Positions 15,209 to 27,050 of a stretch of DNA of 64,000 nt are shown here, one piece after another; position 1 is the stretch's first letter, and each line of letters begins with the position of its first letter. The translations under genes and the position numbers were made by a program. Origin of the DNA: Aminobacter anthyllidis (GTDB lineage: Bacteria > Pseudomonadota > Alphaproteobacteria > Rhizobiales > Rhizobiaceae). Under the pieces are notes generated by a model. That model had not been told where the DNA came from. It saw only the letters and a program-made list of their open reading frames with translations, and did no database searches. The stretch covers positions 62,001-126,000 of the forward strand of contig NZ_JAFLWW010000009.1 of the NCBI RefSeq assembly GCF_018555685.1. Direction: 5' to 3'.

Positions 15209-15471
15209 ACGGCATGGATCCCCGGGTCTCCGCACGTCGCTTCGCTCCTGCTCCGCCCGAGGATGACGAAGGCATGTTGGCTTTCGGCTAACCTCCAAGG
15301 TTGGCACTTGGCGGGAATTTCCGGGCAACTAGCAAGGCAGTGCCGTAGCAATGGACGGAAACGTTCTGCGAGCCGCCGCCGTCGGTGATTGGCCGCGGAC
15401 CCCAATGCCTTCGTCATCCTCGGGCGGAGCAGGAGCGAAGCGACGTGCGGAGACCCGGGGATCCATGCCGT
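15209..15471. repeat. 67-bp perfect inverted repeat pair with 129-bp spacer
   Basis: The arms 15209-15275 and 15405-15471 are exact reverse complements over 67 bases, reading from GGCATGGATCCCCGGGTCTC to GAGGATGACGAAGGCAT. The sequence type is common between rhizobial genes. The spacer has no recognisable coding content. Two copies in opposite orientation could recombine and invert the spacer, or form a long hairpin if transcribed. No transposase, terminal direct repeat or target duplication was seen. Confidence 0.9.
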
Positions 15472-20791: not shown

Positions 20792-20806
20792 CTCCGCGAT
20801 CCTTCG

Positions 20807-20964
20807 CACCCCCCTCTGTCCTGCCGGACATCTCCCCCGCATGGGGGGAGATTGGCAGCTCCAGCCTCGTCGTCACTTCTGCAACGTTGGCGATTGGCGA
20901 TGGCCGGCCCACAGCGTGATCTCCCCCCTTGCGGGGGAGATGTCCGGCAGGACAGAGGGGGGTG
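20807..20964. repeat. Palindromic repeat pair between ccmA and ccmB
   Basis: The arms 20807-20838 and 20933-20964 are perfect 32-base reverse complements, from CACCCCCCTCTGTCCTGCCG to CATCTCCCCC. Each arm also has its own small hairpin: CTCCCCC with GGGGGAG around CGCATG or CTTGC. The sequence (CTCCCC..GGGGAG, ATGTCCGGCAGGACAGAGGG) belongs to the same family as the two copies inside ftsY. It would fold into a long stem in the ccmA-ccmB transcript. Confidence 0.9.
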
Positions 20965-21007
20965 GGAAGAAGCGCCACCTGTCCGCGCAGATCGCCGGAG
21001 CCGCAAC

Positions 21008-25286: not shown

Positions 25287-27050
25287 TCAGGCGACTCCTG
25301 CGATCGCCTTGGCGAAATCGCTTGCCGAAAAGGGTTCGAGATCGTCGACCTGTTCGCCGACGCCGATGAAATAGACCGGCAGCTTATGTTTGGCGGCGAT
25401 TGCGACCAAAATACCGCCGCGCGCCGTGCCGTCGAGCTTTGTCATCACAAGGCCGTTGACGCCGGCGATGTTGCGGAAGATCTCGACCTGGTTGAGCGCG
25501 TTCTGGCCGGTAGTGGCGTCGACCGTCTGCAGCACCGTGTGCGGCGCCTCGGGGTCGAGCTTGCCAAGCACGCGCACGATCTTTTCGAGCTCGGCCATCA
25601 GCTCTGTCTTGTTCTGCAGGCGCCCGGCCGTGTCGATGATCAAGACATCCGAGCCAGCTTCCTTGGCCTTCTCGAACGCGTCATAGGCGAGGCCCGCGGC
25701 ATCAGCGCCGAGCTTCGAGGCGATTACCGGCGACTTGGTGCGTTCGCCCCAGATCTTGAGCTGCTCGATGGCCGCGGCACGGAAGGTGTCGCCGGCAGCG
25801 AGCATGACCGAGAGCCCGCCTTCGGTGAGCTTGGCAGCGAGCTTGCCGATGGTGGTGGTCTTGCCGGTGCCGTTGACGCCGACGACCAGAATGACATGCG
25901 GCTTGTGCGACAGGTCGAGCTCCAGCGGCACCGCGACATGCGTCAAGACCTTTTCGATCTCGACGGCCATGATCGAACGGACTTCGTGGTCGGATACGTC
26001 CTTGCCGTAGCGGGTGGAAGCGAGTGCATCGGTGACGCGCAATGCAGTCTCGACGCCGAGATCGGCGCGGATCAGCACGTCTTCGAGGTCCTGCAGCGTG
26101 TCTTCGTCGAGCTTCCGCTTGGTGAAGATGCCGGCGATGTTGCCCGACAGCTCCTTCGACGAGCGCGACAGGCCCTGGCGCAGGCGCTGGAACCAGCTCT
26201 GCCTCGGCGCAGGCGCGGCCACTTCCACGACCTCGGCCTTTTGCTCGACCTTCTTCTGGACCGTGACCTTGCCGGCGGAGGGCTTTGGAGCAGGAGCTTC
26301 GGCAACGGGCGATGGCTGGGCGTCCTCTCCCCCCTTGAGGGGGAGATGGTCCGAAGGACCAGGGGGGATCGTCTCCGCCACGCTCGGCGTCGCGTCAGAC
26401 GATCCAACGACCCCACCCGGCCGTTGCGCGGCCACCTTCCCCTCAAGGTGGAGGGGAATCGCAGGCGCAACCGGCTCAGGCTCGGGAGCGCGCATCGTCG
26501 GCTCGGGTGCCAAAGGTGCTGGTTGGGCGGGAACCTCCTCGGGCACCTCCGGAACTGACGGTTCTTCCGGCAGGACCGGAACCTCCGCCGGCGCAGGCTC
26601 GGGCTCGACCGGGCTCGGTGCAGGCGCTGGCTGCTCGGCAGGCTTCTCGGGCTCGGGCGCAGGAACTTCCGGCGCTGGCTCGGGTTTTGGCTCTTCCGGC
26701 GGGGCGGGCTGTGGCGCAGGCTCGACCGGGACTGGCTGCTCGGCGGGCTTCGGTTCCGGCACAACAGGCTGCGGCGTTTGAGGCGCGGTCTCTTCCCCCT
26801 CCTTGAGGGGGAGATGGTCCGCAGGACCAGAGGGGGTCACCTCCAACTCGGCGACGACACCACCCCGATCGACTTCGTCGATCGACCCTCCCCTCAAGGG
26901 GGAGGGAGTCTCGGCTGGCGCCTCTTCCGCCGGCCTCAATGCTTTCAGCGCGTCGAAATTCAGCGGCGGCAGGACTTCGTCTTCGGCCGGCTGCTCGACA
27001 GCTTCCTTCTTGCCGAAGGAAAAGACTTTCTTGATGAACCCGAATGCCAT
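25287..27050 (-). CDS. ftsY: Signal recognition particle receptor FtsY, with repeat-derived segments
   Basis: This 587-residue SRP receptor GTPase docks translating ribosomes to the Sec machinery. The membrane-targeting start is MAFGFIKKVFSFGKK. Residues about 20-280 form a very long Pro/Glu/Ala-rich A domain. The N domain begins near residue 285 and the G domain follows with GVNGTGKTTT (391-400), DTAGRL and TKLDGTARGG. The A domain contains two in-frame insertions that match intergenic palindromic repeats, at residues 47-88 and 199-243; both end in DHLPLK followed by E or G and GE. The GTPase core looks intact. The start MAFGF is chosen by family; an upstream Met would overlap mtaB. It lies between mtaB and yciB. 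Confidence 0.95.
   Translation of the reverse strand: MAFGFIKKVFSFGKKEAVEQPAEDEVLPPLNFDALKALRPAEEAPAETPSPLRGGSIDEVDRGGVVAELEVTPSGPADHLPLKEGEETAPQTPQPVVPEPKPAEQPVPVEPAPQPAPPEEPKPEPAPEVPAPEPEKPAEQPAPAPSPVEPEPAPAEVPVLPEEPSVPEVPEEVPAQPAPLAPEPTMRAPEPEPVAPAIPLHLEGKVAAQRPGGVVGSSDATPSVAETIPPGPSDHLPLKGGEDAQPSPVAEAPAPKPSAGKVTVQKKVEQKAEVVEVAAPAPRQSWFQRLRQGLSRSSKELSGNIAGIFTKRKLDEDTLQDLEDVLIRADLGVETALRVTDALASTRYGKDVSDHEVRSIMAVEIEKVLTHVAVPLELDLSHKPHVILVVGVNGTGKTTTIGKLAAKLTEGGLSVMLAAGDTFRAAAIEQLKIWGERTKSPVIASKLGADAAGLAYDAFEKAKEAGSDVLIIDTAGRLQNKTELMAELEKIVRVLGKLDPEAPHTVLQTVDATTGQNALNQVEIFRNIAGVNGLVMTKLDGTARGGILVAIAAKHKLPVYFIGVGEQVDDLEPFSASDFAKAIAGVA
26322..26456. repeat. Palindromic repeat inside the ftsY coding sequence (copy B)
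   Basis: The plus strand reads CTCCCCCCTTGAGGGGGAG, then TGGTCC-GAA-GGACCA, then GGGGGG. A second half carries GGCCG/CGGCC and CCCCTC/GAGGGG palindromes. In the ftsY frame it encodes about 45 residues (199-243), from HLEGKVAAQRPGGVVGSSD to PSDHLPLKGGE. It belongs to the same family as the repeat pair between ccmA and ccmB. Confidence 0.8.
26787..26912. repeat. Palindromic repeat inside the ftsY coding sequence (copy A)
   Basis: The plus strand reads CCCCCTCCTTGAGGGGG, then TGGTCC-GCA-GGACCA, then GAGGGGGTC, and at the far end GATCGACTTCGTCGATC and CCTCCCCTCAAGGGGGAGG. In frame it encodes about 42 residues (47-88), from TPSPLRGGSIDEVDRGG to PADHLPLKEGE. Its first 45 bases are nearly identical to copy B. 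Confidence 0.8.

Follow-up and report, generated by a model that had tools for sequence, protein, structure and literature searches.

Reports of palindromic repeats lying in frame within protein-coding genes come chiefly from Rickettsia and some REP-rich genomes. The Rickettsia palindromic elements (RPEs) are described as palindromes of approximately 100-150 bp that are open in several frames and are located in frame in unrelated conserved genes as well as in intergenic regions (PMC10969869, PMC2229807). The GTAG- and CGTC-tagged REPs occur as inverted pairs that are mostly intergenic, some being found in ORFs, encoding 20 to 82 residues, and different REPs have been recorded at about one site in the recB genes of Xanthomonas (PMC3733652). 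Enterobacterial RU/ERIC sequences are mobile repeats of 127-168 bp that carry open frames and are found within genes (PMC2759123), and rhizobia contain palindromic intergenic repeats known as RIME (cited in PMC2873474). Among the literature matches listed, as far as titles and the openings of abstracts extend, there is no report of in-frame palindromic repeats in Mesorhizobium or Aminobacter, and a description elsewhere is possible.

This article concerns two segments of the ftsY gene of Aminobacter anthyllidis, contained in a 64-kb stretch of DNA that was analysed as a whole (hereafter, the window). Both very probably belong to a dispersed group of palindromic repeats and came to lie in frame within the A domain of FtsY; the group is also found in frame in at least seven other genes of this genome, and its members would be scattered, tolerated as linker filler and eroding. 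Likened to the published descriptions only, these elements resemble RPEs in their strong predicted hairpins, their dispersal throughout the genome and their in-frame copies in unrelated conserved genes, which are absent from homologues. They differ in that RPE hosts are obligately intracellular whereas the host here is a free-living rhizobial relative, and in that the family occupying a given linker varies between species. With the GTAG/CGTC REPs, as the cited text presents them, they have in common palindromic repeats in inverted pairs, some inside ORFs, but there is no Y1 transposase match here, the elements are longer and of two modules, they occupy inter-domain linkers, and filled and empty sites can be compared over several genera. 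RU/ERIC sequences are similarly described as repeats with open frames inside genes, but represent another sequence group by name and host, and the elements here give no duplication signal. RIME and the present elements are alike by description only, both being rhizobial palindromic intergenic repeats, and the cited text on RIME makes no mention of copies in frame.

The ftsY gene and its two elements

Pfam places SRP54_N at residues 301-357 and SRP54 at residues 384-583 of FtsY, so that the A domain comprises approximately residues 1-300. A first-pass annotation of this DNA had located two segments in open frame inside the A domain, and the sequence positions and open reading frame agree (Table 1). 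AlphaFold models FtsY poorly (mean pLDDT 47.1 from 7 sequences), and the model includes, before residue 286, a single helix of at least 4 residues, at 32-36, which suggests that this region may be disordered.

Each ftsY element is approximately 115-135 bp in size and combines an A-type palindrome with a B-type palindrome that differs between the sites. The A module consists of a CTCCCC..GGGGAG hairpin, followed by ATGGTCC..GGACCA and then a run of G, and the B module, across a spacer from it, is a hairpin around CCTCCCCTCAAGG. Both segments had been assigned to the family of a supposedly perfect inverted pair between ccmA and ccmB, the genes that presumably flank the intergenic A-A element, judging by gene order. 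The arms of that pair fall short of perfect complementarity (Table 1), and it has only the A half in common with the ftsY elements, each of which has a distinct B module. The claim that both copies are in the same frame is likewise correct for the A half, read as TPSGPxDHLPLK at site 1 and PPGPSDHLPLK at site 2, and incorrect for the B half, which is read in two frames, as SPLRGGSIDEVDRGG at site 1 and PLHLEGKVAAQRPGG at site 2. The suggestion that the repeats may add mRNA hairpins to ftsY is borne out to the extent that the mRNA strand of both elements is predicted to fold better than shuffles (z -3.5 and -4.6).

Table 1. Coordinates of ftsY, its elements and related features (window positions unless a genome and contig are given).
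Feature	Position	Strand	Description
ftsY	25287..27050	-	Open frame, 587 aa from MAFGFIKK
Element 1 (site 1), A+B- class	26793..26907	-	~residues 48-86; in-frame peptide, relatives' alignment, repeat profile matches (L231)
A module of element 1	26793..26838	+	Repeated directly at 20908-20970 and 26314-26376
B module of element 1	26860..26907	+	B-arm match G000:C30:88886; 93% over 54 bases to C5:128864
Element 2 (site 2), A+B- class	26326..26459	-	~residues 198-242; relatives' alignment, repeat profile matches (L231)
A module of element 2	26326..26369	+	Direct repeat family D1
B module of element 2	26409..26459	+	B-arm match G000:C30:88435, 3 mismatches
Intergenic A-A element, two inverted A modules	20796..20975	.	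57-nt arms, only 93% complementary, 66 nt between
L295, PdhB (pyruvate dehydrogenase E1 beta), AR07	G001:C1:747214-749728		M1-type, in frame, between lipoyl (9-82) and transketolase (from 159) domains

Distribution of the repeats across genomes

The window has five occurrences of an 18-base arm pattern, for which shuffles predict 0.12. The genome as a whole (6.71 Mb in 30 contigs) contains 94 B-arm and 51 A-arm pattern matches, and no match to the reversed pattern of either arm. Pattern matches, together with 7 arms added from other repeat comparisons, make up 91 arm clusters, which include A-A, B-B and single-arm clusters and five of the A+B- class. The A-A and B-B clusters are inverted pairs, i.e., terminal inverted repeats as in MITEs. 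Three of the five A+B- clusters are in genes (P 0.006), two of these three being those of ftsY. Since non-coding copies with two arms have on average 2.5-2.9 of their 6 frames open, in-frame survival should be easy wherever length permits.

Two other repeats, M1 and M2, are dispersed in Mesorhizobium sp. AR07, with 29 and 78 matches, respectively, counts that include both strands for some copies as well as the ftsY copies. The M2 unit may resemble RIME. Spacers of the A-A elements of A. anthyllidis and of Mesorhizobium M2 elements have a similar stretch like AACGTTGGCGATTGGCGA, which hints at a common origin or a common binding site. The window also contains a 97-nt inverted repeat of another sequence type (GGCATGGATCCCCGGGTCTCCGCACGTCGCTTCG...) at 15209-15305 and 15375-15471, 86% complementary and with 69 nt between its halves, which is probably a further intergenic repeat family.

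The Y1 transposase family (PF01797) has no match in the A. anthyllidis genome, the control search giving matches in 5 of 14 genomes. No signal of target-site duplication was obtained: the longest word shared by the flanks was 4.38 for 16 A-A elements (3.93 for mismatched flanks) and 3.25 for 20 B-B elements (3.48 for mismatched flanks). A target duplication seemed visible by eye in L137/L139, but the wider test, made on other elements, yielded none. The ends of 36 elements, inspected by eye, display no apparent constant GTAG/CGTC tag, CGTC being found beside a few. Neither the test for a target duplication nor the Y1 search thus lends support to transposition.

In-frame copies in other genes

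Some open frame spans 31 of the 91 clusters with at least 60 residues on each side (39 frames). In-frame clusters were accepted on the basis of Pfam families plus homologues, the Pfam scan covering 32 of the 39 frames and at least one frame for each of the 31 clusters. Nine clusters in eight genes were accepted, namely ftsY (two clusters), hrpB, an acyl-CoA ligase gene, hyuA, cobN, cobG, xdhC and a gene for an Lhr-like helicase. The genome-wide search for further copies that the first-pass annotation had proposed thus yielded 91 clusters, at least nine of them in frame inside genes; this figure is a lower bound because elements fewer than 60 residues from a gene end were excluded and genes without a Pfam family may have been lost. 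Pfam matches flank the element on both sides in hyuA, xdhC, cobG, the acyl-CoA ligase gene, the Lhr-like helicase gene and hrpB, with one flanking match each in cobG and hrpB falling below Pfam's cut-off. Element-free homologues exist for all eight genes. For HyuA, CobN, XdhC and the Lhr-like protein, two of two fetched homologues each are without the element and the alignment closes around the gap, and both CobG homologues are also without it; as these homologues come from other genera and are approximately 40-75% identical, they establish absence and not exact junctions. By alignment, HyuA has 64 residues here versus 12 at the matching place in the solved N-methylhydantoinase.

Candidates without a Pfam family were rejected (L006, L027, L203 minus strand, L145, L008, L165, L215, L219, L148 and L176; also L055, L156, L159, L188, L192, L012, L169, L218, L225 and L229), a requirement that may lose true genes having no such family. 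With a domain on only one side, L201, L227 and L168 were left uncounted, because the element may precede the start codon. At L201 (contig C27, ~488823), a lytic transglycosylase has a signal-peptide region that continues straight from an A-A element, which may therefore supply the start codon. The N-terminal half of CobN (L184, contig C23) has a second repeat-like stretch of another type (PFSPFTGRRSRQGDEGQEP...GAPSPRERGEGS). The ends of the acyl-CoA ligase frame (L022/L270, contig C5, ~127363-129756) are also element-like, with TPTPTLRVDPQKGEGKG near the start and SSPLEREVAAQRPEG plus a stop at the end.

In AR07, a spanning open frame is present at 15 of the 59 copies fetched, giving 19 frames, of which the Pfam scans covered all but L295 minus and L304 plus. 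Outside ftsY, two of the 59 are in frame between domains, in PdhB (Table 1) and HyuA; L303, L334 and L345, with domains on one side only, were not accepted.

Filled and empty sites among relatives

Ten members of the genus were searched and ftsY was obtained from nine. Site 1 is filled in three of the nine and site 2 in five, and one more member (L237) has the A half alone; L135 is also a half element in FtsY. Comparison with relatives therefore confirmed patchy presence within the genus. In ftsY, the native linker is partly missing where the elements sit and the junctions in the genus alignment are not clean, so that the comparison does not give a base-exact insertion. The segments are neither present in all relatives nor without copies elsewhere, and the proposal that a repeat has spread into a disordered linker of ftsY is supported by these other genomic copies and by the filled and empty sites.

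HrpB, with element types assigned by profile, contains among 10 genus members a B-B element in L240 and L241, an M2-type element in L242 and L244, and an A-B element in L243; the other five have a short, element-free linker, as does L245 from another genus. The acyl-CoA ligase carries one element in five of 10 genus members and a different element at the same place in L275, and is empty in four, and in L280 from another genus. HyuA has an A-type element in A. anthyllidis; at the corresponding place AR07 has one of M2 type and two rhizobia have none. In the sequences compared, the FtsY, HrpB, acyl-CoA ligase and HyuA linkers each hold different repeat families across species.

FtsY linkers in the wider group

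The set of FtsY sequences derived from 79 named loci, 74 with a linker (L094, L108, L109, L126 and L136 were dropped as having none); with 4 further genus members, and with 5 duplicates left out, five Aminobacter FtsY (L064-L068) being present twice, the set numbers 78. Profiles were built from non-ftsY copies only, 11 for M1 and 14 for M2, both from AR07, and two from the A. anthyllidis genome, one being the xdhC copy, for the AB profile. They match 55 of the 78 FtsY linkers (E<1e-3; 54/77 without L100, a partial linker), a proportion that is not a random-sample estimate because the set was picked by similarity to the FtsY of the window. The same profiles have no match at E<1e-3 to GTPase domains or reversed linkers, and L070, which has AB-like peptides by eye, was missed by the AB profile. 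A further 28 FtsY loci from other genera provided 26 usable linkers (L370 and L373 having none) and 5 matches, of which L348 and L352 repeat L112 and L080, respectively, and L358 is borderline (8.7e-4). Hairpins with a stem of at least 9 number 85 in 76 FtsY linkers, versus 1 in 76 GTPase domains and a mean of 3.9 in codon-shuffled linkers.

These counts bear upon an alternative that treats the segments as ancient, native A-domain sequence whose match to intergenic repeats arose through convergence of GC-rich, low-complexity coding sequence. The FtsY linker abounds in P, E and A and its length varies everywhere, and that of the window itself contains no perfect hairpin with a stem of at least 9. 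Against such convergence are the profile matches with their empty controls, the excess of hairpins and the occurrence of the same elements in unrelated genes, and it is contradicted by patchy presence within one genus, by empty sites and by the other copies; it is accordingly held to be extremely improbable, and descent of the segments from dispersed repeats is preferred.

Divergence and tree signal

A quick tree of FtsY GTPase DNA (76 rows, 900 columns; L100, with its partial linker, and the misaligned L140 were left out) has many weak branches. On this tree, M1 at its first position requires 12 changes for 18 carriers (shuffles 16.4) and M2 17 changes for 36 carriers (25.9), so that these two states have some phylogenetic signal. 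M1 at later positions, a category that pools several sites, requires 13 changes for 13 carriers (12.2), and AB sites 1 and 2 require 4 changes for 4 carriers (3.9) and 4 for 6 (5.9), respectively. The change counts therefore indicate some inheritance and much turnover of elements.

Synonymous divergence (pS) is 0.125 and 0.133 in M1 elements versus 0.302 and 0.303 in the GTPase domain, being lower in the element in all 120 and 78 pairs, with correlations between the two of 0.41 and 0.35; pN is 0.087 and 0.118 versus 0.024 and 0.026. The M1 arms in Mesorhizobium ftsY have divergences of 0.059/0.057/0.067 at codon positions 1/2/3 for the first position (L116 and L129, present in alignment A1, were excluded from the first-position divergence counts, pS and pN included) and 0.081/0.090/0.082 for later positions, the GTPase domain giving 0.041/0.016/0.231 and 0.047/0.017/0.230. 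The element peptide shows no sign of selection. The three Aminobacter sequences used for site 1 give a pS of 0.111 there and 0.304 in their GTPase domains, and the five used for site 2 give 0.199 and 0.315; the native linker that separates the sites has a pS of 0.542. The low pS implies that the element DNA arose after the species did, has been homogenised, or is maintained as DNA; it could stem from gene conversion or from constraint at the DNA level.

In a second alternative, the elements are kept in ftsY for a function, with mRNA hairpins tuning translation or stability, or palindromes binding a protein. The predicted folds, the low synonymous divergence, the lesser divergence of arms than of spacers, and one stem pair with both of its bases altered in 4 of 18 sequences are all in keeping with this, but covariation is slight (2/35 pairs, covariation term 0.26), so that hairpin selection is possible only, and patchy presence, half elements and the same elements in unrelated genes make a function improbable. 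Somewhat better placed, though still doubtful, is a history of few insertions and many transfers, in which elements rarely entered ftsY and spread by recombination of alleles, gene conversion keeping the arms alike. Spacers at the same ftsY site are common to several species, so part of the distribution is inheritance; copies at the two ftsY positions have a mean likeness of 0.894 within a genome and 0.889 between genomes, and thus hardly differ in this respect; and M1 at later positions is without tree signal. Those later positions, however, lie in several different contexts, and neither the differing families in one linker of HrpB, acyl-CoA ligase and HyuA nor the spread over unrelated genes is explained by transfer.

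Probable landing in linkers and its significance

The repeats are best read as a putative rhizobial counterpart of RPEs, tolerated in linkers without selection as protein. Some activity would scatter palindromic elements of ~100-180 bp, which are observed to lie mostly outside open frames. Copies within genes would persist if their net length leaves the reading frame intact and they lie in a flexible inter-domain linker, selection of this kind being consistent with the positions observed. The element would then be read as an unconstrained filler peptide and erode, presumably neutrally, in line with the equal divergence of codon positions and the half elements observed. The linkers of FtsY, HrpB, acyl-CoA ligase and HyuA would in this way have received elements of differing families in differing species. 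More tentatively, and with slightly less than even confidence, these four linkers may be standing landing pads that several families enter, where elements are homogenised as DNA with other genomic copies, erode and are replaced, so that, in FtsY as an essential protein, linker length and content would largely reflect selfish DNA instead of protein selection. The kind of event is already known, and what would be new is recurrent landing of multiple families in the same linkers.

These findings place in-frame palindromic repeats in a free-living group, where one genome has them in at least eight genes and dozens of species have them in FtsY. Element peptides are found again in unrelated proteins of rhizobia, where they could lead homology searches astray. 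Filled and empty orthologues provide a natural record of protein linkers tolerating foreign sequence of some 40 residues, and such natural pairs could reveal how the repeats move without a recognised transposase and whether hairpins in an essential mRNA carry a cost.
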